From: Chrysophaeum taylorii
Lineage: Eukaryota; Sar; Pelagophyceae; Pelagomonadales; Pelagomonadaceae
Direction: 5' to 3'
Length of the DNA stretch: 64,000 nt
NCBI GenBank assembly: GCA_029834535.1
Contig: JAQMWT010000024.1
Coordinates: 1 to 64,000, forward strand
The translations under genes and the position numbers were made by a program. Positions 2,812 to 48,593 of the stretch are shown piece by piece (positions within the stretch are counted from its first letter, which is position 1; every line of letters begins with the position of its first letter). The notes below the pieces were generated by a model, which saw only the letters and a program-made list of their open reading frames with translations, was not told where the DNA came from and ran no database searches.

Positions 2812-3064
2812 TGTTGGGTTGAAGCTTAAAATATCTTGCCGATCTTAGCATATCTTGCGTGCTTGCCCTGGAGAAACGATGGCGACGCCTCGTGGGACGA
2901 GCCACGGCGTCTCGTGCCTAAAGAGCGCCGCGACACCGAGGGACGCGCGCGGCTTGCGCGGCACCGCCCGAACGAAGCTGAGAAGCAGCAGAAGCAGCAG
3001 AAGCACCGCGACCTCGACGCGGACCAAGACCGACATCGCGTGGGAGCGTGCGGCAAGACTAGGA

Positions 3065-3290
3065 CAAGGAGCGCGACCGAGCGCGAGAGCGTCGTGCTAC
3101 CGCGCGGCCGCAACACGAGGAAGAGCAACGCGACCGAGCGCGAGAGCGTCGTGCTACCGGGCAGCCGCAACGGTAGGAAAAGGACCGCGAGCGCGCGCGA
3201 CAGCGTCGTGCTACCGCGCCGCCGCAACACTATTGAAAGCTACCGCGCGGCCGCAACACTATTGAAATGGAACGTTCCACCGTCCGTCTA
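3065..3290. repeat. 60-bp tandem minisatellite with NotI-like GC core
   Basis: Three units of about 60 bp share the core GTCGTGCTACCGCGCGGCCG and a GAGCGCGAGAGC lead-in, near 3075, 3135 and 3195. A shortened fourth core lies near 3240. The units then give way to a GAAATGGAACGTTCCA motif that contains a palindrome. No coding function is seen, although every frame stays open because the unit length is a multiple of three. Confidence 0.8.
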
Positions 3291-3754
3291 CTATTGTCGG
3301 AGTATGAAATGGAACGTTCCACATTCGTCTAGTATTCCTCCGTAGGAAGTAGAACCCATGGAACTAACTAACTAACTAACTTCAGACCTCTCCCGAGCAT
3401 GGGAGCCAGGCCGGACCGACAGGAGCCAGTCCGGAATCACGGGCCTGTAGACGAGGAGCGCCGAAAGGTCGGTCGGCGGAGAGTGACCATCAAGCTTGTC
3501 GCCATGCGACGATGAGACCGCGATGTGACTGACAACCAACTCGTCGATAACCTTCCGTCTGCGCCCCCCGGCCATACCCCGTCCCACTGCGAGCGTTCCG
3601 GCTGCCAACCGGCCCGCCCGGGAGGCGAATAGGTGCCAACCTACGCCGGGAGGGCGGATGCCCTCGCAAGGCTCAGGATTCATGAGGCACCGTCCTCCAT
3701 CGCAACCGCAGTCGGCGATCAGGGTAAGGGAAAGCGCCGAAGAAATGATGGCGA
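3291..3754. other. non-coding spacer, nothing recognised
   Basis: It includes a short AACT tetranucleotide run near 3361-3380 and otherwise unremarkable sequence. Open frames here overlap on both strands and show no recognisable domain. Confidence 0.5.
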
Positions 3755-3778
3755 CCCCCCCCCCCCCCCCCCCCCCCC
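3755..3778. repeat. 24-base homopolymer C run
   Basis: An uninterrupted run of 24 C on the plus strand lies between the two minisatellite blocks. The opposite strand is G24, which could form quadruplex structures. Its length may also be unstable or mis-assembled. Confidence 0.9.
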
Positions 3779-3879
3779 AGGCATATCGCACACGTTGGTG
3801 TGCGGCTACAATCCCGACAAGACGTACTGGGCCCTCAAAGCCGAAAAAGAGCCCACCATCCGCACCCTTCCCGCAACAC

Positions 3880-4062
3880 AGAAATGGAACGGCCGTCCGT
3901 CCGACCGACAGCGTCGTGCTACCGCGCGGCCGCAACACAGAAATGGAACGGCCGTCCGCGGCCGCAAAATTGCGAAATGGAACGGCCTTCCTTCCGACCG
4001 TTCCTCTGTCCGTCGTCCGTCTGTCTATAGTAGACAACGTGGTGCTACCACGCCGCCGCAAC
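3880..4062. repeat. second block of the same minisatellite family, next to the gypsy LTR
   Basis: GAAATGGAACGGCC occurs three times (near 3890, 3938 and 3974). The GTGCTACC...GCCGCAACAC core seen at 3065-3290 occurs again near 3917 and 4041. The last core stops about 5 bp before the left gypsy LTR, so the array abuts or was interrupted by this family. Confidence 0.75.
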
Positions 4063-4067
4063 ACGCG

Positions 4068-4402
4068 TGTGGCGTAAGGAGAATTTAGGCCTACCTGGCG
4101 TGCCTTCGAATCCTGGCTCGCCGCTCGCGTCCGTGCCCTTGATGGAGTCACTGGACGAGGATGGCCGTTCTCCCGCCACACAACCACAAACAACTTCCGT
4201 GCCTGGTCCTCACAACTTGAGGATCGGCTGTTGCTTTATGATTAAGATATTATCGAAACACAGAAATCAGGGTGACACATGTCACGGAAAAGGAAGATGA
4301 TGTCATAAAGAAAACTGACATCATCATGACGGAGTAGGGTGCCCCTGAAAGGGGGGGGGCTAGAAGAGGGGTAAGCCTTAGGAGGCGGGAGTTGCCGCCA
4401 CA
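4068..4402 (-). repeat. left LTR of the gypsy array (3' LTR of copy A)
   Basis: 335 bp starting TGTGGCG and ending GCCGCCACA, in the form TG...CA. It aligns along its whole length with 13989-14320 and 24127-24463 but is clearly more diverged, at roughly 5% plus small length differences. The adjoining inner sequence on the minus strand is a purine-rich AGGGGAG tract, as expected for a polypurine tract before a 3' LTR. Confidence 0.9.
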
Positions 4403-4442
4403 GGACTCCCCTGGTAAGAATTCGAGCTGCCCCAGCGAGCTG

Positions 4443-8672: not shown

Positions 8673-9461
8673 CTAAGCTGCGTCTGTCGCGGCTCGTGAT
8701 GATCCTAAATTGTTCATCTGAAGTAAATGTCGTTCGTCGGCGTAGCCAAGTGCTGCGGCGAACTTTTGCTTCATATTCTTGCAAGTCTTTGGAACTGCGC
8801 GCAAATGGAGCGGATGGCTGGAAACCAACAATCGCACGCGACAGCTCATCAAACTGTGCGTTATGTCGTAAAAATTGACGACGTACACGTAAGGGTGCAA
8901 ACGTGCAACGTAAGAAATAATCGAAGCCTCCTGCTCTATCAACCACATGAAGAAACCAGCCATCTTGCATAATTTCATCGTCCAGTGGGTAGCGGTGACT
9001 CCTTTCCCAACATCTCTGGAGGTCAAGTTGCACAGAGCGGAGTGTACGCAGGGTGGCGACGCGACACACATCGACGACGACCATTCCGCGTAGGGTAAAT
9101 AAGATTCGATCAACCGTAAGGTTGTAACATAGCGACCACACAGTGTGTGCTGCACCACAGGAATATTCGGAAAGTTCTTGTGGTGGATCTGGTTGGCGGT
9201 GTCCGACGCATCGAGTGCTAGCACGACTCGAAACGACGTCCCACACGTTTCGTTGGCTCGTTGGAGACCTAAAGTACTGCCTCCGGCTCCACTGAACAGC
9301 ATCACCACCTTGCGATAAGTGATTGGAAGCCATTGAACCTTTTCATATCGGCGGCGGATCTCCGCTTCGGTGATCTCGCGGCATTTCTTTTCATCTTCTT
9401 CCGACCTTCGAGCGAAATCGTCGCTGCCTTCAGGTCGTTTGAGGGTGGACTTGTCCGTCAA
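8673..9461 (-). pseudogene. copy A C5-cytosine DNA methyltransferase-like part
   Basis: About 260 residues on the minus strand between protease and reverse transcriptase. The signature motifs of the DNA_methylase (C5) family appear in order: motif I VVMLFSGAGGSTLGLQRAN (SAM binding), a LALDASDTA stretch in the motif II position, the catalytic motif IV loop VASPPCVHSAL with its Pro-Pro-Cys, an E-containing MWLIEQE stretch in the motif VI position, and SCRVRLLVSSHP in the motif VIII position. I see no long target-recognition region. Only two residues differ from copy B over the shared stretch. Confidence 0.75.
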
Positions 9462-10600
9462 TAGCGGTCGTAGCGTCCTTCTGCACCGTGCTCAGCAGCA
9501 TCGGCGGGGGAGATTCGTCGCATCGCGTCAAATGACTAGCGACAGAAACGGTGAAAGAAAGGTTCCCCTTGTCGTATCCTTCTTCACATTCTTTCGTAAG
9601 TTCGTTGATCGTAGAGACGTTCAACTCATCTTCGTACCTAACGATATCACCAATCGCAAGGACTTCGCCTTGAGTGACGACCGTCGGCACTTCTTCCGTG
9701 GCAGTAACCGCCACCCGAGCAGCGGACCGGTCGCGCTCTTCGCAAGAAGAACACATTCCTTCGACAACTCCCAACTGCTCGTTCTCAGCAAACGTAGCGA
9801 CGAAAACCTGTCCCATTTCCATAGGTTTCGACAAAATAACCGGTAGATTGTAAGTTCGACCGGGCTCGATTTGAAGCGTGCGCGCAGCATAAGCTACTAC
9901 TTCTCGCGCGTCTTCTCCCGGAGCTGGGGAGAATTTGGTCGTAGCATGTCCCCGCGTAGCCAAGGCTACCTTTCGTTCCGGCGGCGGGCTTCGGAGATCT
10001 TTAATCGTGCTCAAACGAGCGTAAACTCGAGTCTTGACCAGGTCGAGACTCTTCCGGAAGGCATCGTGTTGATGATTGTAAATCGGTACGGTTATCGGAT
10101 CTCGATCGTAAATAGATCGAAAGGTCACGATGGGTGCATCGACTCGTTCATCCTTAACTTTAATCTTCTTGCGCCCGTAGACGACTTGGGTTCGATAAAA
10201 ACAGATCCGATCGTGGGGATAGTCCACGATGGCTCCTAAAACTCGTATATCGCGCCCTCCCAACAGGAACAGATAGTTCGTATCGGCTACAATAGCGACA
10301 ATGGGGGCAGCGAAGTCGTCGGCGAAAGCGACCCGAAGGGCGATCCAACGATGGATCGTCGTCGTATTCAACCCTGATCCGTACAGCTTGCGCTTAATCG
10401 GAAGTTCGCCTTCATCGAAAATCAACTGATCTTTGGTCAACTTTTGACCATTTCTCGGCAAATATAAGAAACATCTGCCATTCCATCGACACCGATGGTC
10501 GTCGAGAATTTCGGTCCGTCACGATTCCTGTAGATGTGACAGGCTATAAACGTAAGAGTACCCGTATCTAAACAACTGAGGGTAATCAAATCATCTTCGA
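9430..10600 (-). pseudogene. copy A protease region
   Basis: The minus strand carries an aspartic-protease segment: a CLDTGT catalytic motif near 10570, then a flap-like region and a retropepsin-like ending (FLLGGRDIRVLGA) near 10240. It matches copy B almost residue for residue. It sits directly before the methyltransferase-like part. Confidence 0.7.
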
Positions 10601-13988: not shown

Positions 13989-14320
13989 TGTGGCGTAAGG
14001 AGAATTTTAGGGGCTACCTGGCGTGCCTTCGAATCCTGGCTCGCCGATCGCGTCCGTGCCCTTGGTGGGATCACTGGACGAGGATGGCCGTTCTCCCGCC
14101 ACGCGACCACAAACAACTCCTGCGCCTGGTCCTCTCAACTTGAGGATCGGCTGTTGCTTTATGATCAAGGATAATCGAAATCAGAAATCAGGGTGACACA
14201 TGTCACGGAAAAGGAAGATGATGTCATAGAAAACTGACATCATCACAGCGGAGTAGGGTGCCCCTGATAAGGGGGCCCTAGAAGAGGGGTAAGCCTTAGG
14301 AGGCGGGAGTTGCCGCCACA
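13989..14320 (-). repeat. middle LTR shared by copies A and B
   Basis: 332 bp, TGTGGCG...GCCGCCACA. On its left side it has the same leader and primer-binding sequence that flanks the right LTR, so it is the 5' LTR of copy A. On its right side it has the polypurine-like tract and integrase end of copy B, so it is also the 3' LTR of B. It differs from the right LTR at only a few positions, about 1-2%. Confidence 0.92.
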
Positions 14321-14360
14321 GGACTCCCCTGGTAAGAATTCGAGCTGCCCCAGCGAGGTG

Positions 14361-16261
14361 CTAGCGCGAGGAGCGCGGCTTCGCCTTACGAGCATCTCGT
14401 GAACGAATCTTCTGGTAAACGCGGGTGATGATCGGTTCAGGAACTCGACCACTGCGTAAAGTAAACTTGGGGACCAACACGTCAATCTCGTGCGGAGCGA
14501 AATCCGTGACACAAGGAGTTGTGTTGGAGGAAATTCGGGACTTGTCGGTGAAACTTCGACCTTCAACGTCCTTGAATTCGGGCTTGAGCTTGCGGTGCGA
14601 AAGGTGAGAGGTCGGCTTGAAATAAGCGACATCATCGTTCGGACCCAAATCGGAATAGAAATGTAGAGCAACACGATCATTTTGGTAATCGTAAGGCTCG
14701 TAAACTTCGGCAACATAAATCTTCTTGCGCCAATCAGAGCGCTTCCGGTCAGGAATCCGGAAAACAACAAACTTACCGTGCTGATAATCATCACGGAAGG
14801 TTTCTTCGGGTTTGCGGATGGTTTGATCAACGATCGGAGGTACCATCACAGGCGTGATCTGACTTACATGAACACGTCGTTCTTCGGGCGGAGAGTCGAG
14901 AGACTCAATCCTATAGGTGACCGGGGAGAGGCGTTCCTTGATAATAAACGGCCCTCGCCATTCCGGTCGAAGTTTGTTCTGAAGGAAAGGGATGTAGAGC
15001 AAAACGTGCGATCCTTCCTTGTATTCAACATCAACATGATCAGCATTGTAAGCCAATCGCTGTTTCTTCAAAGCTTTATCACGAGCCTCGCGGACGATCT
15101 TTGTATAATATTTCAATCGTTCGCGAGTCTCGGCGACTGCATCAGAGCGAGTCTTCGGCAATAATCGTGTATCAAAATCCATGAGCGTGTAGTCAGTCGG
15201 TAGCATCGGCTGACGGTTCAGGCGCAGCATAAAGGGAGAAATCTGCGTGCCTGGAATAAACTTGCGGTTGTAGCAAAACGCAATATAATGAGCAAAGTCA
15301 GGCCAATCCGTGATGTTCCGGCCTTGAAGGCAAGCACGGAGGAAGGCCTTGATAAATCGGTTGACACGCTCAGCCGGGTTCGACTGGGCATGATAAGGAA
15401 TCGTAGTTTGGTATCGTGTGTTAAAGAGATGGCAAAACTCGCGCATCAACTTGTTCACGAACTCTTTACCGTTGTCGGTACGAATCATCTGGGGCAAGTA
15501 GCCCTTGAGGAGAATGTTAATGACAAAAGACTCGAGGACAGACTCAGCGGTCTTATCGTTCAAAACATCCAGAATCAAGAAATGCGAGAACGGATCAAAA
15601 AATACTAGAAGATACGTCTCGGGACCAGCGCTGGGCAAGGGTCCAAATAAATCCATGCAAAGAACAGCACCATCACCATCGTAGACGGGCTGCTGCAAGA
15701 GTCCAGCTCGTTTCGGCTCAGGCGTACGAGCTTTCTGACAAACTAAGCATTCAGCAATGAAGACTCCAACTTCGTTCGACATGTGAGGCCACCAAAATCG
15801 TTCTTGGATAGCCTGGACGGTACTGTGACGTCCCATATGACCACCGTTAACCGGAGTGTCATGATAGAGTCGAATAATGCGCTTGCGCAACGTAGCAGGT
15901 GCAACAATCATCGGGTGCGAATCAGCAGAAATGCGGTAAAGAACATCTTTAACGACTTCGAATCGTTCGTTCGCTCGGGAACGTCGCGGCGTCTGACCTT
16001 GGGCCATTCGGTAGCGAATATCCTCGCAAGTAGCATCAGATTCTTGCTCACGTGCGATCTCAGCGAGCGTCATATTATCGGGTATCTTATCGATATAATC
16101 TTTGTAAGCGGCTGCGTCCTTGAAGATCTGTGGCTCATCACGCGCACGGTTCTTCCGACGTTGTCTCGTAGCGTGAGACGTAGCCAATTTCATCGGATCC
16201 TTTTCAGGGTCTTCGTCTTCGTCTTCCGGCAGTTCGGTCGTAATAAACGACATTATGAAGT
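14361..16261 (-). CDS. copy B integrase (fossil element part)
   Basis: It continues the same pol frame. It has an HHCC zinc region (GGHMGRHST ... CLVCQK near 15750-15850), a D,D,E core (CMDLFGP, IRTDNGKEF, NPAERVNR) between about 15350 and 15670, and a GPFIIKERLSPVTYRIE fold near 14920. The unrecognised basic C-terminal extension ends 41 bp before the 3' LTR. No clear chromodomain is seen. Confidence 0.9.
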
Positions 16262-18130
16262 GGCAGCCGGAGACGGGAACTCCTCGGTCATCAACAGGTC
16301 GGGGAAGCTCTTGGAACACTAAATACGCGTGGTTCAAAGGTTCTCCAAACTCGTCAGTCTCGATGACATGATCTATCGGGTTGCGGGAGAGACAGTCAGG
16401 GATACTCATTCCCGGTGACTTTCCCGGCTTGTAACCAAGTTCAGGGTCAAAATTGGCGAGGCGCATCGCCCAACGAGCAAGCTGCCCAGACGAGTGCGTC
16501 GCCTTACGTAAAAACGTCAAATTTCGGTGATCGGTCTCCAAAACAGTACGGTGCCCTTCGATGTAGGCTCGAAAGTGCTCTAGAGAAAGTATAACTGCCA
16601 GCAGCTCTAGCCGACGGGGCTCATAATTCCGCATCTCCTTCGGCACAGCTCGGCTCCAGTATTCAATTACTCGTTCTTCTCGAGTCACTCTTCCGGCATC
16701 GTCCTTGACTTCGACAATCTGGAAGAGATATGCTCCAAGTCCATCCTTGGAAGCATCGGATCGGATCTGAAAAGGCAGATCATAATCGGCGTGGTAGACT
16801 CCACGGGAATCAACCAAAGCTTCAATAATCGTATCCCAAGCTTTCTGACACTCGGGCGTCCACTCGAACTTTACACCTTCGAGGCATAATCGTCTCAACG
16901 GTTCCACAATCTTCGAGTAGCCCTTCACATATCGCCGGCAGTAATTACTCATGCCGATGAAAGAGCGTATCTGGGTCTTCGGGGAAGTATTCGGTAAAGT
17001 ACCTGGAATCGGCATCTTCTGCAGTGCTTCCAGCGTCTTCGGATTCGGCTTCAAGCCTTCTGGGGTAGAAATGTGTCCCAGAAATTCTATATCATCCTTG
17101 AGAAGGTGGAACTTCGCGGTTCGACCGCTGTACCCTCTCTGTGCCAAATGACACATCACTTCGATCAAAACTTGTAAATGTCGATGAAGATCGTCGGATC
17201 CCATCATAATATCGTCAACAAACGCAACCAAGTCTTGATACATCCATTTCGAAAGGTCGCTCGCCATTTGCTTGCAGAAAAGAGCTCCGGCCGTCTTCAC
17301 ACCTAGAGGTAATCGCAAGAAACTGTGAGCGCCAAGTGGGCTAACCATCGTGACAGCGTCCTGCGCTGCCGGATCCAGACGAAGGTTGTGGTATCCCCAT
17401 CTAATATCAATGCATGTCCGCCATCGTCTCATCGCGAGAAAGGCTAAAGCATCATCTTGTCGAATGTTTGGCCAACTGTCATTGACCAATTGATCGTTGA
17501 GCTGACGTAAGTCAACTGCAGCACGGAACGCGTTTGACGTTCCAATCTCAGCTCCTTTCTTCGGAAGCATCAACACAGGAAAGCCCCAAGGTGAGTTGGC
17601 CGGACGAATGACTCCATCCCGGCACCACTCGCTGATCTGCTTGCGGAGACAATCGAGCTTCGCAGGCGTCAATCGGTAGGGCGTCATCTTAATCGGTCGC
17701 GGATTCGCGTCTTTGAATCGTAGAGACACAGGAGGCGAGTCCACAGGTCTCATAATCGGGTCGAAAAAGGCCCAAGAATATTGCACACAGTGACGGAGCA
17801 TCAGTTTCGCCTCGTCATCTAAGTGCGGATTGTCAGGAATTCCCAGCTCCTGCACAACCTTGTCAACTTCTTCCTTCGTAGGAATTTTAACTTTCATTGC
17901 TTCGTTGTCCTTGACATGCTCAGGAGTCTGCGGCAGTGGTGCACCCTCGGCATCGCGCGGCGCATCTTTCCATGGCACATCGAACTTTTTCTCGTATTTT
18001 AGTTTCACTTCCGGGTGGCTTTTGTTGATCCTCTCGCCTTTGACACGAACACTCGGCTCGCTCTTAATCTTCGGTTCCCGATCTCGCTCAGGATCTGGCG
18101 GAACGTCTAAATTTGGTTGTCGGGGGCCAG
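16262..18130 (-). CDS. copy B reverse transcriptase and RNase H (fossil element part)
   Basis: Part of a pol frame that stays open from 19247 to 14361. The reverse transcriptase spans about 16900-17800, with the VAFVDDIMMGS active-site box near 17225. RNase H spans about 16440-16800, with RSDASKDGLGAY and TDHRNLTFL. The connection FIGMSNYCRRYVKGYSK is typical of Ty3/gypsy. A basic, Lys/Glu-rich linker lies just before the reverse transcriptase. Confidence 0.9.
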
Positions 18131-18451
18131 CAGAAGAAGCATGAGACGTCCCCGGCTCATCTGTTGCAGGCGGAATCAACGGTACCTCTGGAGGTTTCCA
18201 TTTGGTGCGATCTTGAAGATCATCAGTCGACACCCATCTTATGACACGTGTGCGCGTGTTTAACAGCGGAACTTGTACGTGACGAAGGGTGGTTTCATCA
18301 ATTTGTAAATAATAATCAAACGGTCGGTCTGCAGGACTCAACGCTGACGGCAAAGCTTCGCCGCTCAGGTGAAATTCCTTGGTCACAGAGTTGTGCAGAT
18401 CGAGCATTAATAAGGCCATCGTGTCAGGTGGCACGACGGACGCCAAGTGTT

Positions 18452-19435
18452 TCAACGAGGTCGTCCTGGAGAAGCCGGCCCAATCAAAATCAGGGGCATC
18501 GTCAGCAACTCCGCAGTCATTTCCAGATTCAAAGATCTGTAATCGGAACGGTGCGGCCCTACGCGAAGCGGGACACGCGTAACAGTATAAGCTGCGTCTG
18601 TCGCGGCTCGTGATGATCCTAAATTGTTCATCTGAAGTAAATGTCGTTCGTCGGCGTAGCCAAGTGCTGCGGCGAACTTTTGCTGCATATTCTTGCAAGT
18701 CTTTGGAACTGCGCGCAAATGGAGCGGATGGCTGGAAACCAACAATCGCACGCGACAGCTCATCAAACTGGGAGTTATGTCGTAAAAATTGACGACGTAA
18801 ACGTAAGGGTGCAAACGTGCAACGTAAGAAATAATCGAAGCCTCCTGCTCTATCAACCACATGAAGAAACCAGCCATCTTGCATAATTTCATCGTCCAGT
18901 GGGTAGCGGTAACTCCTTTCCCAACATCTCTGGAGGTCAAGTTGCACAGAGCGGAGTGTACGCAGGGTGGCGACGCGACACACATCGACGACGACCATTC
19001 CGCGTAGGGTAAATAAGATTCGATCAACCGTAAGGTTGTAACATAGCGACCACACAATGTGTGCTGCACCACAGGAATATTCGGAAAGTTCTTGTGGTGG
19101 ATCTGGTTGGCGGTGTCCGACGCATCGAGTGCTAGCACGACTCGAAACGACGTCCCACACGTTTCGTTGGCTCGTTGGAGACCTAAAGTACTGCCTCCGG
19201 CTCCACTGAACAGCATCACCACCTTGCGATAAGTGATTGGAAGCCATTGAACCTTTTCATATCGGCGGCGGATCTCCGCTTCGGTGATCTCGCGGCATTT
19301 CTTTTCATCTTCTTCCGACCTTCGAGCGAAATCGTCGCTGCCTTCAGGTCGTTTGAGGGTGGACTTGTCCGTCATAGCGGTCGTAGCGTCCTTCTGCACC
19401 GTGCTCAGCAGCATCGGCGGGGAGATTCGTCGCAT
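18452..19435 (-). CDS. copy B C5-cytosine DNA methyltransferase-like part (fossil element part)
   Basis: About 327 residues. Motif I (VVMLFSGAGGSTLGLQRAN) binds S-adenosylmethionine in this family. The catalytic cysteine loop is VASPPCVHSAL. An Arg-x-Arg motif VIII candidate (SCRVRLLVSSHP) and an E-containing motif VI candidate follow in the right order and spacing. The usual ENV of motif VI is not exact and the target-recognition region is short or absent, so activity is uncertain. The location is constant in both copies, between protease and reverse transcriptase. LTR retroelements carrying such methyltransferases are known from dinoflagellates and the charophyte Klebsormidium. Alternative: a methyltransferase-derived domain used only for binding. 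Confidence 0.78.
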   Translation of the reverse strand: MRRISPPMLLSTVQKDATTAMTDKSTLKRPEGSDDFARRSEEDEKKCREITEAEIRRRYEKVQWLPITYRKVVMLFSGAGGSTLGLQRANETCGTSFRVVLALDASDTANQIHHKNFPNIPVVQHTLCGRYVTTLRLIESYLPYAEWSSSMCVASPPCVHSALCNLTSRDVGKGVTATHWTMKLCKMAGFFMWLIEQEASIISYVARLHPYVYVVNFYDITPSLMSCRVRLLVSSHPLHLRAVPKTCKNMQQKFAAALGYADERHLLQMNNLGSSRAATDAAYTVTRVPLRVGPHRSDYRSLNLEMTAELLTMPLILIGPASPGRPR

Positions 19436-20967
19436 CGCGTCAAGTGACTAGCGACAGAAACGGTGAAAGAAAGGTTCCCCTTGTCGTATCCTTCTTCACA
19501 TTCTTTCGTAAGTTCGTTGATCGTAGAGACGTTCAACTCATCTTCGTACCTAACGATATCACCAATCGCAAGGACTTCGCCTTGAGTGACGACCGTCGGC
19601 ACTTCTTCCGTGGCAGTAACCGCCACCCGAGCAGCGGACCGGTCGCGCTCTTCGCAAGAAGAACACATTCCTTCGACAACTCCCAACTGCTCGTTCTCAG
19701 CAAACGTAGCGACGAAAACCTGTCCTCTTTCCATAGGTTTCGACAAAATAACCGGTAGATTGTACGTTCGACCGGGCTCGATTTGAAGCGTGCGCGCAGC
19801 ATAAGCGATTACTTCTCGCGCGTCTTCTCCCGGAGCTGGGGAGAATTTGGTCGTAGCATGTCCCCGCGTAGCCAAGGCTACCTTACGTTCCGGCGGCGGG
19901 CTTCGGAGATCTTTAATCGTGCTCAAACGAGCGTAAACTCGAGTCTTGACCAGGTCGAGACTCTGCCGAAAGGCATCGTGTTGATGATTGTAAATCGGTA
20001 CGGTTATCGGATTTCGATCGTAAATAGACCGAAAGGTCACGATTGGTGCATCGACTCGTTCATCCTTAACTTTAATCTTCTTGCGCCCGTAGACGACTTG
20101 GGTTCGACAAAAACAGATCCGATCATGGGGAAAATCCACGATGGCTCCTAAAACTCGTATATCGCGCCCTCCCAACAGGAACAGATAATTCGTATCGGCT
20201 ACAATAGCGACAATGGGGGCAGCGAAGTCGTCGGCGAAAGCGACCCGAAGGGCGATCCAACGATGGATCGTCGTCGTATTCAACCCTGATCCGTACAGCT
20301 TGCGCTTAATCGGAAGTTCGCCTTCATCGAAAATCAACTGATCTTTGGTCAACTTTTTGACCATTTCTCGGCAAATATAAGAAACATCTGCCATTCCATC
20401 GACACCGATGGTCGTCGAGAATTTCGGTCCGTCACGATTCCTGTAGATGTGACAGGCTATAAACGTTAGAGTACCCGTATCTAAACAACTGAGGGTAATC
20501 AAATCATCTTCGATCGTCTTGCCGTCTCGCGGCGTCAACGAAGTGTGAGCACATCGGGCTCTGAATCGCTCATCTCCGGGGTTGGGCATCGATACCGCGG
20601 CTTGAGCTTTCGTATTATCTGTTGTTGGCGTCTTCGCCATAACGCTCGCGGCAGCCTCTTTATCTGGCGGCTTCCGCTCTTCCTCCAAGACAATCTCAGA
20701 GGGAATAAGTGCTGGTAGGGGATCCTGGTCTTCGTAGTTCACGGAAGCAAAGGACCCCTCCCATAAATCATTCATTTCGTCTTTCCAGAATGCATCTGTA
20801 AATTCATTCGTCGCCTGCTGATCCTCATCAGCATCGGCGATCGGTTCCGTGTCAGCTGCGGCTTTGAGTCTGCAGCTGCGCGGTTGTTCTGGTGGCTTCT
20901 TTAGCAAGAAATTCCGAGCTTTCGTCCACCAATCCTGCAGGTTCCACGTCGGCTCGTCTTCGTCCAC
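19405..20967 (-). CDS. copy B protease region (fossil element part)
   Basis: About 520 residues. After an acidic linker shared with copy A comes LSCLDTGTLTF with the catalytic DTG near 20485, a hydrophobic flap-like stretch, and FLLGGRDIRVLGA toward the end of a retropepsin fold. A further 180 or so residues link it to the methyltransferase-like part. In the family it matures the polyprotein. Confidence 0.75.
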   Translation of the reverse strand: MDEDEPTWNLQDWWTKARNFLLKKPPEQPRSCRLKAAADTEPIADADEDQQATNEFTDAFWKDEMNDLWEGSFASVNYEDQDPLPALIPSEIVLEEERKPPDKEAAASVMAKTPTTDNTKAQAAVSMPNPGDERFRARCAHTSLTPRDGKTIEDDLITLSCLDTGTLTFIACHIYRNRDGPKFSTTIGVDGMADVSYICREMVKKLTKDQLIFDEGELPIKRKLYGSGLNTTTIHRWIALRVAFADDFAAPIVAIVADTNYLFLLGGRDIRVLGAIVDFPHDRICFCRTQVVYGRKKIKVKDERVDAPIVTFRSIYDRNPITVPIYNHQHDAFRQSLDLVKTRVYARLSTIKDLRSPPPERKVALATRGHATTKFSPAPGEDAREVIAYAARTLQIEPGRTYNLPVILSKPMERGQVFVATFAENEQLGVVEGMCSSCEERDRSAARVAVTATEEVPTVVTQGEVLAIGDIVRYEDELNVSTINELTKECEEGYDKGNLSFTVSVASHLTRCDESPRRCC

Positions 20968-20997
20968 TTGAGAACGCTGCTAATCTTCTTCATAAAT

Positions 20998-23661
20998 CTA
21001 TCCTTTTCTTCCGGCGGCGTATCCGTGTCTCGATCCGTAGTAATCGAAACCGTTTCGGGGGTCCGCAGGAAAAGATGGCGTCGTCCCCGACGTCAACTCT
21101 GTCGTAAAATCGTCGTCTGCAATACTCGCGCTGGTCATCGTCTCGTCAGTCGAATGCGCGCACGAGCTATCACTGCAGAAATTCATGTCTGGCTCACAGC
21201 CAGTTCGGTCGCCAGCGGTCGTCTCTGGAGGGTCCAAAGATAAGCCGATGGCATCGAGGGCTTCCTCATCAAAAATAAACGGTGGGTCGTCCGTGGACGA
21301 CTCGTCAAATAACGCTAACGCGGACACTGGTTCACAAAGTGTAGCTTCTTCATCTTCCGAATCTGAATCGCCTTCCCAGTATCGTGGAGCTTCAAGTTCC
21401 TCGCTCGAATCTTCGAGCTCATCGCTCGACATCTGCTCATAAATCTGTGCCAAAGACCGACGATTGGTCAGCACGTCGTTGGGTGGCTCGTCCATCGGTG
21501 GGCGAGCAAGATCGTCGAATGCGGCCTCGGCAAGGGCGTCGGCTGCGTCGTCGGTGCGGGTGTCCGTGTTCGGGTACACCGTCACTCCTAATGGTAACTG
21601 TTGACCGCAAGGGGTCGTAAATGCGAACGTTGCAGACGACTGTCCCGAGTCTTCTCGGTAACGACCATCGTCCGAATCTCGATCGCGAGATCTTCGTCGC
21701 CGGCGGCGGCGTGAATGTCTGCTAGAGCTCCTGCTATCTTTCCGTCGGCGCTGGCACGAGCTGCTACGGCTCTTGTCGTGGCGTCGGGGGCTCCGGCTAT
21801 CTCGACGGCCCGTTCGTGTCGAAGACGATCGGCCGTGTCCATCTGTTAAGTGCTGCACGGTACTCATAACCGTGGTTAGCTGCGTGCTCATATCATTGAG
21901 TCTGCTCTGAATATCGTGAGCAGCGCTCGAACCGAGGGTGGCATTAGAACTGCCGTCGTCACGCGAATGATTATCTTTCCTTTGTCGGCTCTCCCATCGT
22001 CCTCGCGAAATGGGCTTTCTGCCGTCTTTGATGTATTTGCACATCGCTACATAATAGTCGTCGGGCTCGCGGTTGCAAATGACGCGGTTCCCGTGTTCGT
22101 CTTTGTCGTGGGTCGCTAAGAAAAACCCACAGTCCTGGCACGTCCTCTCGAACCACTTTTTCGGATTCTCTTCGAGGCGTAAGGCTTCATATTTCGTCGT
22201 CTTATCTTTCGTTCCCGAGACGAGAGCTCGTCCTCCGCGTCCAGGCGGCGGCTTCTGCGGCTTCCCGCTCGAGGGGTTCATCGAGTTTCGGCTGTTCTTC
22301 TCCGCCATGGCTGTTGCGAAGTCGTTTTCGAGCCGCGTAATCAGCGACAACGTAGACGTAAACGTCTTATACGTCGTCGGGTGTCCGCTGCGCATCGTTC
22401 GCACGCGGGATTTCAATTCGCTGGACTCCAGTCCACGTATCAAGTAAGAGATGATCTCCACGTCGTTGAGATCTCGGTTGGCCACGGAACAGTATGCCAT
22501 GGCTTCTTGCTGAAATTTAATGCAATATGTATGCACGTGACGTTCTCCAGAGCGTTTCGGAACGGTCGCTTGGGTCGTGCATTGTAACTTTCGTAATGAT
22601 TCCTCTGCCGTCACCGGCAGCGGACAACTCTCTCGGAAATATTTCAAAATCTTGAGGCAATACTTCTCGTTCAATCGTCGTATCCGTCGTACCACGGAAC
22701 CGTACTCCTCATCGTCGATATCCCGACATAAATAGAAAGACGCTGGGTGATCGAGGTCTTTACACAGGTCTTCATATTTCTTTAAGTGTTCTCGAAAAAT
22801 CGGTGCGACCGTGTCGCGCAGGGTAGCGGGAAGCAGATATCGGAGTTTCTCCAAGCTGAAATGGTCTTCGGCTAACGTACGCATCACCGCGCCAGCATCT
22901 AAATCGAACTGGTCCTGATCGCGTCCATCGAGAACCAGTTTAAAAGTTTCGGTTTTTAATCCAGAGGTTGATCGCCGCTCCTTGTTGCGATCGTGTTTAG
23001 CTAACGCGCTCGCGAGTCGATCCGTAAAACCCATCAAGAACTCCTGGGTGTCGATCTTTCCGGCGCCACGCGTCTCCTCCTTTTCTTCTTCATCATCGTC
23101 TTCATAGCGCGGCTTTCTAGCTTTCGCGCGTGATCGTGTAGTCGGCGGCTCTTCCTCAGCTCGGGACTCCGGGCTGCTCGCTCGCCTTGATCGACTCGGC
23201 GTACGTAACTCGTCTCTTTCACGTGTCAACGAGCTTACTTGATATTGGAAGGCGTCTGCTCGAGCGTTGGCCCGACGCAGTTGCTCTTTTAATTCTTCTT
23301 TCTCCTTCCGTTGTAGCCGTTCTTTTCGTTCGTTCTCTTCCCCTATTTGTTTTAAAAGTCGTTCTTGCGCGCGTTCGTTCTCTTCGCGTAATGCCCGCAA
23401 GTGAGCCTCGTAGAACTCATTCATTTTCGTTGCATCCGGGGGTTCTGCACGCGTTGACGGAGCTGTCGATCGTCCTCCCGTCGGTCTCTCCGTGGGCTTG
23501 CCGTCGTTGTAGTCTAGCTCTTCTTCCTCGTCAACTTCTGTATCGTGCTCTTCTTCATCGTCATCATTATCATCATCGTCATTCCGCTCGTTCGTCTCAT
23601 CCTGACGGCTTGGCGGTTCTTCATATCGTAGCTGCTCGACGGCAGCATCATCGTCTTCCAT
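20998..23661 (-). CDS. copy B gag with capsid-like region (fossil element part)
   Basis: About 887 residues. It has an acidic N-terminus with an Asp/Glu-rich run, a Glu/Lys/Arg-rich coiled coil, and then a helical region of about 250 residues (around residues 215-470) with the look of a Ty3-type capsid. An Arg/Ser-rich basic stretch follows, and then an acidic tail shared with copy A. A pair of Cys-containing motifs (CQDCGFF, VICNREPDD) stands where a zinc knuckle might be expected. In the family it forms the particle and packages RNA. Confidence 0.75.
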   Translation of the reverse strand: MEDDDAAVEQLRYEEPPSRQDETNERNDDDDNDDDEEEHDTEVDEEEELDYNDGKPTERPTGGRSTAPSTRAEPPDATKMNEFYEAHLRALREENERAQERLLKQIGEENERKERLQRKEKEELKEQLRRANARADAFQYQVSSLTRERDELRTPSRSRRASSPESRAEEEPPTTRSRAKARKPRYEDDDEEEKEETRGAGKIDTQEFLMGFTDRLASALAKHDRNKERRSTSGLKTETFKLVLDGRDQDQFDLDAGAVMRTLAEDHFSLEKLRYLLPATLRDTVAPIFREHLKKYEDLCKDLDHPASFYLCRDIDDEEYGSVVRRIRRLNEKYCLKILKYFRESCPLPVTAEESLRKLQCTTQATVPKRSGERHVHTYCIKFQQEAMAYCSVANRDLNDVEIISYLIRGLESSELKSRVRTMRSGHPTTYKTFTSTLSLITRLENDFATAMAEKNSRNSMNPSSGKPQKPPPGRGGRALVSGTKDKTTKYEALRLEENPKKWFERTCQDCGFFLATHDKDEHGNRVICNREPDDYYVAMCKYIKDGRKPISRGRWESRQRKDNHSRDDGSSNATLGSSAAHDIQSRLNDMSTQLTTVMSTVQHLTDGHGRSSSTRTGRRDSRSPRRHDKSRSSSCQRRRKDSRSSSRHSRRRRRRRSRDRDSDDGRYREDSGQSSATFAFTTPCGQQLPLGVTVYPNTDTRTDDAADALAEAAFDDLARPPMDEPPNDVLTNRRSLAQIYEQMSSDELEDSSEELEAPRYWEGDSDSEDEEATLCEPVSALALFDESSTDDPPFIFDEEALDAIGLSLDPPETTAGDRTGCEPDMNFCSDSSCAHSTDETMTSASIADDDFTTELTSGTTPSFPADPRNGFDYYGSRHGYAAGRKG

Positions 23662-24126
23662 ATCGGCTCTGGCTCGTTCTAGTCGGCCGAGATCAGAGCG
23701 GGTCCAAAATGGTTGAGTCGTCGTCGTTCTCGTGCTCCTTCGGCTCTGGAACTTCTAATCGTCCACGACACGCGTAATATCGTCGTTGCGTGCGTCTTCC
23801 ACCGACAAATCTATCCGTACGGTGGGCGGCAGAACTCGTCTCTGCCCGGCAAACAATGCCTTATCCGTGAGTTGCGATCTCACTCCGCTCGCCTGCGGCA
23901 GCGGTACCCGGGTTGCGCGTCGGTTAGCACCAAATCGCGCGTCGTCACTTCCGACGACTAACGTATCCGGCCGGGGAACTTTCCCACGGCAATGGTCCTT
24001 CTGGAATTCCTTGTCGGCGCGCTTGATCAGGGCGCGCACGGCTTGTCCGGACCGTGTAGAGAATGCAAGATGCACTAGTTCGCTGCGACCGATATAGTCG
24101 CTCGAATCTCGTATTCCTCCACCACC
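23662..24126 (-). other. copy B 5' leader with primer-binding site at 24108-24124
   Basis: Same leader as 13524-13988. The minus strand reads TGGTGGAGGAATACGAG two bases after the 5' LTR, a plausible tRNA primer-binding site of 17 bases. The duplicate leader on both elements is what shows that the middle LTR serves as 5' LTR for copy A. Confidence 0.65.
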
Positions 24127-24463
24127 TGTGGCGTAAGGAGAATTTTGGGGGCTACCTGGCGTGCCTTCGAATCCTGGCTCGCCGATCGCGTCCGTGCCCT
24201 TGGTGGGATCACTGGACGAGGATGGCCGTTCTCCCGCCACGCGACCACAAACAACTCCTGCGCCTGGTCCTCTCAACTTGAGGATCGGCTGTTGCTTTAT
24301 GATCAAGGATAATCGAAAATCAGAAATCAGGGTGACACATGTCACGGAAAAGGAAGATGATGTCATAGAAAACTCTGACATCATCGGAACGGAGTAGGGT
24401 GCCCCTGATAAGGGGGGGCCCTAGAAGAGGGGTAAGCCTTAGGAGGCGGGAGTTGCCGCCACA
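24127..24463 (-). repeat. right LTR of the gypsy array (5' LTR of copy B)
   Basis: 337 bp, TGTGGCG...GCCGCCACA, nearly identical to the middle LTR. The five bases outside it (GTCAC) do not match the five bases outside the left LTR (ACGCG), so the array as a whole shows no target-site duplication. Confidence 0.92.
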
Positions 24464-24870
24464 GTCACTTTTAATTAATTCCCCTCGGATCATCATCAGT
24501 CGTCGCGTCGGGTTCCGCCGTTGGTGCCGCCGCCGCCGTTAGGAGCAGATGGCGGTCCGGCGGCGGCTGTTGGCCGCCAGGCGTTGGAGCAGGCTGCGGC
24601 CGTCGATGACGACGAGGAGTCCGAGGTCGATGACGACGCGGACGACTCGGGGAACGAACGTGCGGGCGCGCGGTCCACGTGGACCGCGCAAGCGTCATGG
24701 AGTAGTAGGAGCTACGACGGCCAGCACCCGCGCGGAGAGCGTTGTTGTCCGTGGTGTTTTGATCGTCGGCGGGTCGAAGACGATCGGGATGGTGTCGGAT
24801 CCGGCGCAGCGTAGATTCTCGCTCGAGACTGGAACCGAACCTCCAGGGGCAGGAAGCGGAGCCTGAGCCC
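24464..24870. other. spacer between the gypsy array and the C-CAP/TPR gene, no confident gene
   Basis: GC-rich sequence with overlapping open frames on both strands. A minus-strand Ser/Ala/Pro-rich frame (24496-24678) looks low-complexity and I do not accept it as a gene. It could hold the end of an interrupted host gene. Confidence 0.4.
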
Positions 24871-39956: not shown

Positions 39957-41572
39957 ATGATCAAGACCTGAATAGCCGTGGTCATCGCCGCTTAAGTGGC
40001 TTTTGTCATCGTCGACCTTGGCCATGATGACTCCGACGACGGCTGACACGAAGAGGTTAGTTTTTTTGCGGTTTAAACCGAAGACTGTGAAAGCAAAATA
40101 GCTCTGCTGTCGTAACGGTACACGCGCCACCTCGGAAGTGTCAGCCGGTTAGTGGTCTAGAGCGGAAGTCCCATTCAAGTGTTCGGCCAAGACGGCGAGT
40201 GCGAGCTTGACGTAACCAAAGACGCCATCGATCGTAAAGAGGTGTCTGGCCCAAGTCCCGATTCTCCGTCGTCGCGGAGCGTCGCCTTGCAATTCAAGGA
40301 GAAGTGGTAACTGGGAGAGGCTCGAGAAGTCGCAGAGGAAGCCAAGATCGGTGCTCCAGTTGAAGCCCAAATTGGTGTACGGGAGGTACGGTTGCGGGTC
40401 GCGCAGCATGCTTACGTATGCGGGCAACGAGCCAGCTTGGATTGCCTCGTAGATCATAAAGGTTGGTGGAAACGCGCCGCGGGGAGTGATGACCCAGAGC
40501 GCCTCTTGGATCTCGCGCACAAACTCGTCGTAGGTAAACAAGGGCTCGTCGCGCTGATTCTCTGCGGTACCATATTGTGCTTTTTTTCCGCCCACGCACG
40601 GATGCACGCGCATGTCGTAGTCTCTAGACCCCGACAACTCGGTGAGGTTGAAGCGAATTTCGTGGGAACACTCACCCGCAAAAAACGCTCTTCGCTGTTT
40701 CTCGGCCTCAAAGGGCACCTCTGTTCGATGCAACAAGGGTATCGGGATCCAACGACGCGAGCGCTTTTTCTCGAGATACGTTCCCTTAGGGAGTTTTCTT
40801 GCAAACAGCTCCGTCGACGCGTGCTCGGCTAAAGAAAGAGCGTTAAGCCGCGAATCGAAGATGACGCCAAACTTTCGAGCTTCCCAAGCAAAGTCTGACT
40901 GCTTGCACTTGACGAAATCGGGTGTCGCTTGGCCGTACCTGCCCGCGTTGTCTCACTTCAAGGTGGAGGCAGAAAAACGCTACAGACGGTCTGAGAAGAC
41001 ATCTTGTCCACAAGAGGAGACACAGACAACTGTTCGCAATACAGGCAGCCAGCCGCAGACAGGTACACATGCACGCGCGTGGTCGCAGCCGACGTGGACT
41101 CGAACTCTGGTAATAAAATCTCTCTACGTGACAAAGTGTTCGAAGGACGCGTTCAAACCTCGGATGAAAACCATTGCGTCCGCTACGTAATTGCAATGAT
41201 GAAACCGGTCCCACTTTTCAACGAGAGTGTGCCACGGTAAAGGCACGTACACGAATCTTCCAAACATAGGCATTTCCCGTCGCCAGAGCAAATACAAGTC
41301 GTACGAGAACCTGAACCTCGAGGAGCTAGCCGCGACCCAGAATTTATCGCATTCGTCGAGGATTCGGGTTTGGTACGCTATCCACTCGGGATCCGCCGGC
41401 GCTCGTCGCCGCGCGGCGAGCTCCGAGGCTAGCCATTCGGCACTTGTAGGATGCGTCGTCTTTCCATCGACGACTGCTTGGGGCAGTTTAAGGTCAGATA
41501 ATAAAACCGCATCGAGCCGAGTTTTCGGATACTTCTTCGTCTTCGTCTGCCTACCGTCCGCGAGGGCCAACA
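39957..41572. repeat. segmental duplication, copy 1 (holds exostosin gene 1)
   Basis: This block aligns with about 45325-46957 over its whole length, including 3' flank, both exons and the intron. The two copies are in direct orientation about 5.4 kb apart. Coding differences are few and the introns are almost the same, so the duplication is recent. Confidence 0.85.
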
Positions 41573-41591
41573 GAACCAAAGCGCGGCGCAT
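40149..41591 (-). CDS. exostosin-like (GT47) glycosyltransferase, gene 1, two exons
   Basis: Exons 41128-41591 and 40149-40938 are joined across a 189-nt GT-AG intron and give 417 residues. The N-terminus (MRRALVLLALADG) is hydrophobic and may be a signal or anchor for the secretory pathway. The C-terminal half carries the exostosin signature: FFAGECSHEIRFNLTEL, then EALWVITPRGAFPP and the conserved YEAIQAGSLPAYVS before a PY motif. GT47 enzymes transfer sugars in the Golgi, for example in plant cell-wall or heparan-type glycans; the substrate here is unknown. The splice is supported because the tandem copy has both sites and the same exon lengths. I rejected the upstream GTG for the ATG at 41591. 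Confidence 0.85.
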
Positions 41592-41699
41592 TGCGTGTGG
41601 CAACTGGGTTAAGGAGTACACCACTCAAGGGTTTAGGAGTAAGGAGGACTCGAAGGTTAAAGGTAGTAGGATTTTTTAATCGTCCCAACTGCGAAAAAA

Positions 41700-45324: not shown

Positions 45325-46957
45325 TGATGATGATGATCAGGACTTGAACTTGTGCCTGTAACTGGGCGACACACAGGTCATCATCGCCGCTTATAATGGC
45401 CCGAGTGAGTCATCGTCGACCTTGGCCATGATGACTTTGACGGCAGTAACAACAAAGAGGTTTGCGGCGGTTTACAACGCAGACTGTGAAAGCAAAATAG
45501 CTCTGCTGTCGTAACGGTACTTCGGAAGTGTCATCCGGTTAGTGGTCTAGAGCGGAAGTGCCATTTAAGTCTTCGGCCAAGACGGCGAGTGCGAGCTTGA
45601 CGTAACCAAAGACGCCATCGATCGTAAAGAGGTGTCTGGCCCAAGTCCCGATTCTCCGTCGGCGCGGCGCATCGCCTTGCAATTCAAGGAGAAGTGGTAA
45701 CTGGGAGAGGCTCGAGAAGTCGCAGAGGAAGCCAAGATCGGTGCTCCAGTTGAAGCCCAAATTGATGTACGGGAGGTACGGTTGCGGGTCGCGCAGCATG
45801 CTTACGTATACGGGCAACGAACCAGCTTGAATTGCCTCGTAGATCACAAAGGCAGGTGGAAACGAGCCGCGGGGAGTGATGACCCAGAGCGCCTCTTGGA
45901 GCTCGCGCACAAACTCGTCGTAGGTAAACAAAGGCTCGTCGCGCTGATTCTCTGCGGTGCCATATTTTGCCTTTGGTCCGCCCACGCACGGATGCACGCG
46001 CATGTCGTAGTCTCTAGACCCCGACAACTCGGTGAGGTTGAAGCGAATTTGGTGGGAACACTCACCCGCAAAAAAAGCTCTTCGCTGTTTCTCGGCCTCG
46101 AAGGGCACCTCTGTTCGATGCAACAAGGGTATCGGGATCCAACGACGCGAGCGCTTTTTCTCGAGATACGTTCCCTTAGGGAGTTTTCTTGCAAACAGCT
46201 CCGTCGACGCGTGCTCGGCTAAAGAAAGAGCGTTAAGCCGCGAATCGAAGATGACGCCAAACTTTCGAGCTTCCCAAGCAAAGTCTGACTGCTTGCACTT
46301 GACGAAATCGGGTGTCGCTTGGCCGTACCTGCCCGCGTTGTCTCACTTCAAGGTGGAGGCAGAAAAACGCTACAGACGGTCTGAGAAGACATCTTGTCCA
46401 CAAGAGGAGACACAGACAACTGTTCGCAATACAGCCAGCCGCAGACAGGTACACATGCACGCGCGTGGTCGCAGCCGACGTGGACTCGAACTCTGGTAAT
46501 AAAATCTCTCTACGTGACAAAGTGGTCGAATGACTCGTTCAAACCTCGGATGAAAACCATTGCGTCCGCTACGTAATTGCAATGATGAAACCGGTCCCAC
46601 GTTTCAACGAGAGTGTGCCACGGTAAAGGCACGTACACGAATCTTCCAAACATAGGCATTTCCCGTCGCCAGAGCAAATACAAGTCGTACGTAAACTTTA
46701 GCTTCGCGGAGCTAGATGTGGCCCAGAATTTATCGCATTCGTCGAGGATTCGGGTTTGGTATGCGATCCACTCGGGATCCGCCGGCGCTCGTCGCCGCGC
46801 GGCGAGCTCCGAGGCTAGCCATTCGGCACTTGTAGGATGCGTCGTCTTTCCATCGACGACTGCTTGGGGCAGTTTAAGGTCAGATAATAAAACCGCATCG
46901 AGCCGAGTTTTCGGATACTTCTTCGTCTTCGTCTGCCTACCGTCCGCGAGCGCCAAC
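45325..46957. repeat. segmental duplication, copy 2 (holds exostosin gene 2)
   Basis: Partner of 39957-41572 in direct orientation. Differences are scattered single bases, a 4-base difference inside the intron and one short cluster in exon 1. Homology ends close to the start codons, so the two genes have different 5' flanks. Confidence 0.85.
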
Positions 46958-46977
46958 ACCACCCAAACACCGTGCAT
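45539..46977 (-). CDS. exostosin-like (GT47) glycosyltransferase, gene 2, two exons
   Basis: Exons 46514-46977 and 45539-46328 with a 185-nt GT-AG intron give 417 residues, the same as gene 1. The N-terminus differs (MHGVWVVLALADG) because the duplication ends near the start, yet it is again short and hydrophobic. The exostosin block is intact: EALWVITPRGSFPPAFVIYE and EAIQAGSLPVYVSMLRD. The clearest change from gene 1 is a run of substitutions in exon 1 (FWATSSSAKLKFTYD against FWVAASSSRFRFSYD). Different 5' flanks imply different promoters. Substrate unknown. Confidence 0.85.
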
Positions 46978-48593
46978 TCCGTCACCTCCTGTCCGCGTGC
47001 GCTCTCGCCTGTTGTGTGGCAACCTTGACAGCGGGTAAGCTTCAGTTGTCGAGGAGGGACATTGCCGTTGAATCGCACCCCGGGCTCTTACAGCGACTAC
47101 TTGCGGCGTAAAGTTGCACCCTCTCCCCCTCATGCTGCGCAATGCAAATATTACGAGAATACGACAGGCGAAGAATCTTCAAGCTTCTGCACGACACGCG
47201 CCGGGACGGCGCGCGATGGTCGCAGGTCGCAGCTTGTTTCGAGGACGTCGCACGCCTCAAGAAACTCAGGAATTTTCTCTTTTTGCCTGGCGGCCTTAAG
47301 TTTTAACCCTCTTGGGGTCCCCACTCAGGATGCCGCCCAGCTCCCCGCCACGTCAATTCCCACCCACTCTGAGCAGTCGACAAGTAAAAACCAGCACAAA
47401 TGGCAACTCGCCTCTCCTCGACGGGTCCTACCGCCCCATCAGATAAACTAAGGTTAGTTTTGTTGTTGATTTTTTTTCCGCCCAGGTGTGCAAGCTGTCC
47501 GAGACGAGAGTGTGTTCCGGGCTATCAGTCATTAGGACCCCAAGATCGACAGCGATGCGACGTTACCGAGCGATGTGCCTGATCAGCTCTCGCATATTCC
47601 TCGATGTTGACGCCATCCGCTGAATCGGGATTACGATCTCTAAGTTCTCTTTGTTGGCGCAATGATGTTGACACCGATCAATCTAGTGCTGTTGTTGAAG
47701 CATACTTTTTTTGACTGCACGCACGATTGATTTCCCACCAGAGAAATGAAGCATCCGTCGGTGCCCTCTCTCGATAAGCGTGGGGGTGTTCCCTTTCTCA
47801 TACGACGGCCATGCCAGACCGGCGATGGAGCGAGTCTCGCGGGGATGGATCGACGGGATGCGGCGTTTTCGTCCATTTGGCGTTGAGATTGTGCTCGCGA
47901 TGCTCAATATGGGCATTCCGAGACCTCGCCGAATCACACGCAGCGCCCGGCCAAAGATCTGGCGCCGCCGCTTGTTGGTGCTGTCCGCGGGCATGTCGTC
48001 GTGAATTCCCCATCACGGATCGCGTACTAGCCAAGGTCGACCTCGCCCATGGGGAACGCAGCGGCGCCTTCAGCAACTAGCGCGCGCTTTTGGTGAAATT
48101 GGGGGGGGTGGTTCGCACATTGGGTTGCTCGTTGGACTGATGGCAGATCGGTCATCATCTTCGTCGGCACGACGTGGTGTTTTGTTTGAGACATGGTGAC
48201 CAGCGAATTCTGGACCCGAATGAATTAAGTCGGCCAAGAGCAGCGCACACTTCGGTGCGGCGTTAATGTCACCACAAAAAAGTGCGTCGTGTTGGCATCA
48301 TCATCGAGGCGTAGACAGACATCATCCGCCGCGGCAATCAATCCGAACGATGCATGCCACCACCACGAATTTACCACTAGGCTTCCTTCCTTCCAGGACA
48401 AAATTACTGCAACAACTAAACGTACAACCAACAGAGGATTTATTGATATTCCGCGACTCCGCGGCCACCACCGATGGCCTGATTATTATTCAAACATCGC
48501 AGAAAAAGAAGAAGAAGAAGAAGAAGAAGAAGAAGAAGAAAGAGCGTTTCTCGTTGTCATTATTACTCAAAGAGATCAGATCTATATCTATAT
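46978..48593. other. intergenic region, no confident gene
   Basis: Short open frames on both strands (for example 47683-48080) overlap and show no domain. A GAA run lies at 48502-48541 and a TATCTA repeat near 48582-48598. Confidence 0.45.

Follow-up and report, generated by a model that had tools for sequence, protein, structure and literature searches.

The window, the whole 64,000-nucleotide stretch of DNA that was analysed, contains two Ty3/gypsy copies, A and B, on the minus strand, arranged in tandem with one common LTR (4068-24464; Table 1). The LTRs are 333-338 bp long, and all have TGTGGCG...CGCCACA ends. Self-comparison delimits these LTRs, and the Pfam search recognised reverse transcriptase (RT), RNase H and integrase in that order in the Pol frame, as in Ty3/gypsy elements. 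Comparing the outer ends of the array by eye revealed no target-site duplication, and together with the shared LTR this gives a pattern as after recombination between copies. The primer-binding-like stretch of copy B has 100 matches in the genome, all but one of them listed with identical sequence; no tRNA primer was identified among these 100 matches, which we take to be the elements' own sites.

Table 1. Features of the gypsy array in the window, and loci of the copia methyltransferase (MTase) family elsewhere in the genome.
Feature	Position	Strand	Basis or remark
Ty3/gypsy copy B, LTR to LTR	13989-24464	-	Self-comparison and LTR ends
5' LTR of copy B	24127-24464	-	TGTGGCG...CGCCACA ends, then a TGG-type primer-binding-like stretch
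Gag-side ORF of copy B	20998-23754	-	No Pfam family above cut-off
ORF with retropepsin-like stretch and linker	19405-20979	-	Protease by eye
Retropepsin-like GVDGMADVSYI	20374-20406	-	By eye
Retropepsin-like LFLLGGRDI	20158-20184	-	By eye
MTase ORF of copy B	18452-19447	-	331 aa, own frame, motifs I-IX; ORF list and Pfam
Motif I, FSGAGG (SAM binding)	19193-19210	-	Located in copy B translation
Motif IV, SPPC with catalytic Cys	18962-18973	-	Cys kept in 55/55 aligned copies
Motif VI, LIEQE (E-Q-E replacing E-N-V)	18842-18856	-	Copy B translation and alignment
Motif VIII, CRVR (R-x-R; here R-V-R)	18746-18757	-	Copy B translation
Motif IX-like, YRSLNLEMTAELLTMP	18494-18541	-	Corresponding sister-family region matched by PF00145
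Motif X-like, LASVVPPDTM	18417-18446	-	Pol frame, past the frame break; continuous with the domain in intact copies
Pol-frame stretch: MTase end, spacer, RT, RNase H, integrase	14361-18494	-	ORF list and Pfam
RT (RVT_1)	17070-17564	-	Pfam
RNase H	16449-16787	-	Pfam
Integrase zinc finger	15723-15899	-	Pfam
Integrase core	15390-15671	-	Pfam
Shared LTR (3' LTR of B = 5' LTR of A)	13989-14321	-	Self-comparison
MTase ORF of copy A	8673-9491	-	Stops before motif IX
3' LTR of copy A	4068-4403	-	Self-comparison
Copia MTase family	L053, 2500-4140; L054, 1-2169; L059-L062		PF00145 and dN/dS

An earlier note on this DNA had proposed a C5-cytosine MTase domain here on the basis of FSGAGG, a PPC loop and an R-x-R motif, and all three are located in the copy B translation in the right order. 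Motifs I, IV (PC), VI, VIII, IX and X of the domain of this family (family 1) all follow the expected order, with motif names and their assignment to C5-MTase blocks as we take them to be. Two motifs depart from the canonical form, with E-Q-E at motif VI and no Gln in motif VIII, and the residue after the catalytic Cys is V or I, not Q, in the alignment of the gypsy MTases. The extent originally given to the domain leaves out motif X, which lies past its end in the Pol frame, and the earlier note did not mention the motif IX-like block at 18494-18541. At the intact locus L018, the 291-aa MTase domain adds a motif IX-like block, RSLNLEMTSELLTMP, and a motif X-like one, LASVVPPDTM. In this domain, motifs VIII and IX lie 70 residues apart (from R167 to R237), compared with 100 in the plasmid MTase L068, in line with the suggestion of a compact enzyme with a short target region. 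In copy B the frame also changes upstream of the MTase; these frame breaks, and the stop before motif IX in copy A, indicate that both window copies are damaged or misread. The proposed placement between protease and RT holds on the downstream side, where Pfam recognises RT, RNase H and integrase, but on the upstream side the protease is identified by eye, the Pfam search having recognised none in the window copies. Retropepsins usually carry D-[ST]-G-A at the active site. By eye, both this family (window 20374-20406) and the sister gypsy family described below (end of L073) read D-G-M-A-D at this site, which suggests that the active site of the protease is atypical or modified in both.

The window copies themselves fall just short of recognition as C5-MTases. 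Against PF00145, which has a curated Pfam cut-off of 22 bits, copy B scored 21.6 bits (E=1.6e-4), 0.4 under the cut-off and with a match limited to profile positions 2-52 of 324, and copy A scored 21.0 bits (E=2.5e-4), below the cut-off; the NCBIfam model dcm gave E=0.0012 and 0.001 for the two, far under its own cut-off. The MTase domain of the intact copy L018 reached 26.0 bits, above the PF00145 cut-off, and the MTases of the sister gypsy family reached 37.6 and 36.4 bits, clearly above it. When a sister-family MTase was cut in pieces, each piece matched PF00145, the N-terminal one with E=3.6e-5 and the C-terminal one with E=3.8e-4 (profile positions 261-321); the family-1 C-terminal piece alone, taken from L018, had no Pfam match. 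Alignment A2, comprising 11 rows from both gypsy families picked from 21 copies that fit the motif pattern, had 10 rows matching PF00145 at E<=1e-3 (best 2e-10). Comparison of A2 by hhalign with five C5-MTases (host DNMT2, one phage enzyme and three from plasmids, including a pair with 99% identity) gave a probability of 95.4 and E=1.7e-8 over a span from motif I to motif IV. Because intact and sister copies pass PF00145 and two sister pieces match it separately, membership of the family can be regarded as settled. These profile matches confirm the stretch 18452-19447 as a predicted divergent C5-MTase domain of a Ty3/gypsy Pol, directly upstream of RT, and so uphold the original assignment.

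Searches beyond the genome and against solved structures returned little. The best solved-structure matches of copy B were DNMT2-type and not significant (E=0.038 and 0.043), the A2 profile had no significant match (best E=0.31), and the sister-family profile had no match up to E=10. An AlphaFold prediction made from the two window copies only had a mean pLDDT of 29. Protein searches with the 331-aa ORF (E limit 0.1) and with the MTase region of the polyprotein (E limit 0.01) found no relative outside the genome, and neither did a search with A2 (E limit 0.001) among the 8000 candidates that shared the largest number of words with it, in the collections covered. A scan of viral contigs gave 48 pattern matches, none of them a relative.

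To place the window copies in the genome (70.8 Mb, 697 contigs), the copy B ORF was used as a query, and it matched at least 121 places with 78-100% identity (121 scored of 1010 candidates). By an eye count, the matched MTase stretch is free of stops at 94 of the 121 scored places. L018 has a single open frame of 1310 aa that runs from the protease-like region through the MTase to RT, placing the MTase inside the gypsy Pol ORF as in the Klebsormidium element discussed below, and six of 50 family-1 loci (L015, L017, L018, L025, L026 and L028) have no stop over the whole fetched frame. Reading frames were surveyed at 55 loci chosen non-randomly, by score or divergence, of which four did not have both junctions readable; protease-linker, MTase and spacer all lie in one frame in 28 of the remaining 51 copies. 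Programmed frameshifting as a rule, suggested by the separate MTase frame of copy B, was rejected on this count. In 13 of the 50 loci L001-L050 (L001, L003-L006, L008, L019, L024, L039-L042 and L044), the longest match to the protease-linker region is out of frame with the MTase, each time by the same shift; the break sites possibly differ, and the shift may be inherited, recurrent, an error of the assembly or something used in translation.

The sister gypsy family (L055-L058, L073 and L074) has, as far as fetched, the same succession of protease-like region (by eye), MTase, RT and RNase H. Its RNase H is above the cut-off, and its RVT_1 match of 24.9 bits is below the cut-off of 29.6. The identity of this family to family 1 is 61% for RT, over 69% of the query, and 41-43% for the MTase (38% in the broken copy L057). 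A genome search with this family scored 133 of 886 candidates and gave 141 matches, some of which are fragments belonging to a single copy.

The gypsy MTase is under purifying selection. We calculated NG86 dN/dS medians for family-1 sets 1a, 1b and 1c (8, 4 and 12 fetched loci), with within-set pairs counted in both orders. For the MTase, the median was 0.049 between 1a and 1c, at a saturated dS of ~2.3 (92 of 96 pairs, four being dropped as dS was incomputable), 0.251 between 1a and 1b, 0.218 within 1a and 0.105 within 1c (range up to 0.903). In the same order, the medians were 0.152, 0.304, 0.362 and 0.469 for the protease-linker region and 0.028, 0.135, 0.101 and 0.224 for RT. Among 55 aligned copies, the catalytic Cys and both SPPC prolines are present in all 55, and the first Glu of motif VI and each Arg of motif VIII in 54. 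Mean divergence over these copies was 0.006 at 12 motif positions and 0.115 over all positions, that is, about nineteen times less at the motifs.

A PF00145 search of the genome, which gave 121 matches (123 scored of 474 candidates), also revealed many places with a second, different MTase sequence. This family had been missed by the earlier note, as had the high copy number of the gypsy family and the broken or stopped frames of the window copies. At L053/L072, a Gag-side ORF is followed by a DGGAS stretch (protease by eye), the MTase, an integrase-like region (rve, E=0.0048, below the cut-off) and, downstream of it, a copia-type RT (RVT_2, E=9.7e-40 in L072). Integrase upstream of a copia-type RT is the Ty1/copia order, and the predicted domains place this family (family 3) there. 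Its MTase matches PF00145 with 32.4 bits, covering profile positions 39-174 at most, and carries LPCQ, kept in the six copies compared, and ENV; motif I is non-canonical, and motifs IX-X were assigned by eye. A genome search with it gave 79 matches (69 scored of 793 candidates). All 15 pairs of the six fetched copies, one of which contains a stop, had dN/dS values of 0.087-0.278. Comparison by hhalign with known MTases yielded a probability of 34.7 and E=4.1e-4 only, and the search against solved structures returned just two unrelated chance matches. The gypsy and copia MTases showed no detectable similarity to each other (hhalign probability 0.1, from shallow profiles). Judged by these profile matches and dN/dS values, the copia family carries a different C5-MTase upstream of integrase, under purifying selection. 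About 300 residues separate motifs VIII and IX in the copia enzyme (L053, about 3046-3930), with an H-x-D stretch seen by eye; this region had no Pfam match up to E=10.

The genome contains a 488-aa rbcL, and the light-harvesting family has 84 matches in it. The best solved relatives of the rbcL are, by their entry codes, presumably red-lineage Rubiscos, mostly from diatoms. On these grounds the host is apparently an alga with a red-lineage plastid and apparently neither a dinoflagellate nor a charophyte, which agrees with the earlier suggestion of another lineage. The two best PF00145 places in the genome are a DNMT2 (L051; E=3.9e-39 against the solved DNMT2 1g55) and an MTase with an SNF2 domain (L052), and other host DNMTs are possible among the 121 matches of that search. 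MTase with SNF2 domain is the DNMT5 architecture according to excerpts of PMC12344493, and by excerpts of PMC9998398 DNMT5a occurs in stramenopiles, pelagophytes among them. In a 12-row tree, which did not include DNMT3, five gypsy MTases formed one group (100/100) and two copia MTases another (100/100); the gypsy group was separate from the copia enzymes and from both DNMT2 and DNMT5 of the host, with weak deep forks and long branches. The host enzymes are likewise PF00145 C5-MTases, but they are far from the element enzymes and not an evident source. An independent acquisition of the gypsy MTase is likely, the Klebsormidium and Symbiodinium enzymes being compared by description only.

DNMT-bearing gypsy, DIRS and LINE elements are already known elsewhere: excerpts of PMC5890265 describe DNMTs in LINE and DIRS elements of Symbiodinium and in a gypsy Pol of Klebsormidium. 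The closest parallel is KnitGypsy-Dnmt3 of Klebsormidium nitens, which likewise has a C5-DNMT in its gypsy Pol ORF under purifying selection (reported Ka/Ks < 0.2); it is reported to be DNMT3-related with key residues conserved, again compared by description only (PMC5890265). Unlike that element, the present family has at least 121 scored places in what is apparently a red-lineage-plastid alga, has E-Q-E at motif VI, and had no relative in our searches. The elements of Symbiodinium (SymbioDIRS-Dnmt3 and SymbioLINE-Dnmt) share with ours the hundreds of retroelement DNMTs in one algal genome and the presence of different MTases in different retroelement classes (PMC5890265), but their carriers are DIRS (tyrosine recombinase) and LINE elements, compared with Ty3/gypsy and Ty1/copia here. 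A precedent for DNA methylation by such an enzyme is the DNMT3 carried by DIRS elements of Symbiodinium, which acts de novo on CG (PMC5890265). DIRS elements with a Dam-like MTase also carry a nucleic-acid methylase, in that case a structurally unrelated adenine enzyme (PMC5890265, PMC6338049). Excerpts of PMC6338049 include stramenopiles among the organisms whose Ty3/gypsy and DIRS elements encode DAM and DCM enzymes, with the enzyme per host unstated, and excerpts of PMC12344493, citing PMC5890265, mention some DNMT3 embedded in 'LTR Copia and DIRS' elements. By this wording a copia case may be on record, with gypsy possibly meant there. Among the literature matches listed (titles and abstract openings), there was no further report of a gypsy or copia element carrying a DNMT in an alga of this kind.

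We favour, with somewhat better than even confidence, a joint reading in which the C5-MTase domain of this high-copy Ty3/gypsy Pol is packaged and methylates element cDNA. The predicted order of the polyprotein is Gag side, protease-like region, linker, MTase, RT, RNase H and integrase. Most simply, one capture of the MTase would predate the split of the two sister gypsy families, and purifying selection would have retained the enzyme thereafter. The MTase would be produced together with RT and integrase, enter the virus-like particle with them and methylate double-stranded element cDNA after reverse transcription, before or at integration, so that a new copy might arrive marked as host-like or chromatin-ready. 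A lasting mark of this kind could leave a trace at CpG sites, and 28 other family-1 loci were compared with L018 over 29 aligned stretches. There was no CpG footprint, with transitions at 0.0142 at CpG sites versus 0.0150 at other C/G sites; the C-to-T rate was highest at CCT, and the observed/expected CpG ratio was 1.37 in element B and 1.32 in the whole window. The missing footprint counts against a lasting CpG mark, whereas transient, non-CpG or well-repaired methylation would be compatible with it.

The substrate could also be RNA. DNMT2 methylates tRNA, and motif IV of the gypsy enzyme shares its SPPC with DNMT2, which reads SPPCQP in the host DNMT2 alignment; an RNA m5C enzyme acting on the genomic RNA of the element or on its tRNA primer would fit this likeness and the DNMT2-type, non-significant structure matches of copy B. 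RNA methylation is also raised in excerpts of PMC5890265 for the LINE-borne enzyme, which was inactive on DNA in yeast. However, the tree, with its weak deep forks, shows no supported grouping with host DNMT2, and V or I instead of Q follows the catalytic Cys, which leaves an RNA substrate unlikely, if worth serious attention. The altered motif VI, the motif VIII without Gln and the lack of a CpG mutation footprint would suit an MTase fold kept as a non-catalytic module for SAM sensing, DNA binding or spacing of protease and RT. Such a loss of catalysis is hard to reconcile with the near-invariant catalytic Cys and motif VI Glu, and purifying selection also acts on the dissimilar copia MTase, which retains LPCQ; we therefore judge the non-catalytic reading distinctly unlikely.

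Host silencing, served or tolerated by the element, would have the MTase mark genomic copies and host DNMT5 maintain the mark, damping transposition. The host does have a DNMT5-like MTase with an SNF2 domain, and a damping role is discussed in excerpts of PMC5890265, but the high copy number, the many open copies and the absence of CpG decay make this account very improbable. That the motifs arose by chance in a coding stretch that encodes no methyltransferase deserves almost no credence: the marginal Pfam score of copy B, the protein searches without a relative and the low pLDDT would be as expected, yet intact and sister copies exceed the cut-off, sister pieces match separately, the hhalign comparison with known MTases is significant and the motif positions are far less variable than the rest, which refutes it at the level of the family.

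The proposed packaged, cDNA-methylating enzyme may have a counterpart in the copia family. With a gypsy MTase under selection and a dissimilar MTase in a copia element of the same genome, elements of this sort may place chemical marks on their own DNA. In a broader reading, which we put forward tentatively and at slightly less than even confidence, Ty3/gypsy and Ty1/copia elements would each have captured a different MTase on the protease side of Pol, and selection would have kept both active for a convergent self-methylation of cDNA, carried out by orphan enzymes, in a host where DNMT5-based methylation is possible. Two mutually unlike MTases, each under purifying selection in one alga, suggest that carriage of a DNMT is a repeated solution. 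Retroelement-borne cytosine MTases described earlier come from dinoflagellates and one charophyte (excerpts of PMC5890265), and the present ones from what is apparently a red-lineage-plastid alga. The hundreds of natural copies provide a system for asking whether a genomic parasite marks its own DNA as host-like or steers chromatin.

Elsewhere in the window, 39982-41596 and 45381-46982 form a direct duplication of 1.6 kb with 94% identity, and each duplicate contains a minus-strand ORF of 267 aa that appears exostosin-like by eye.
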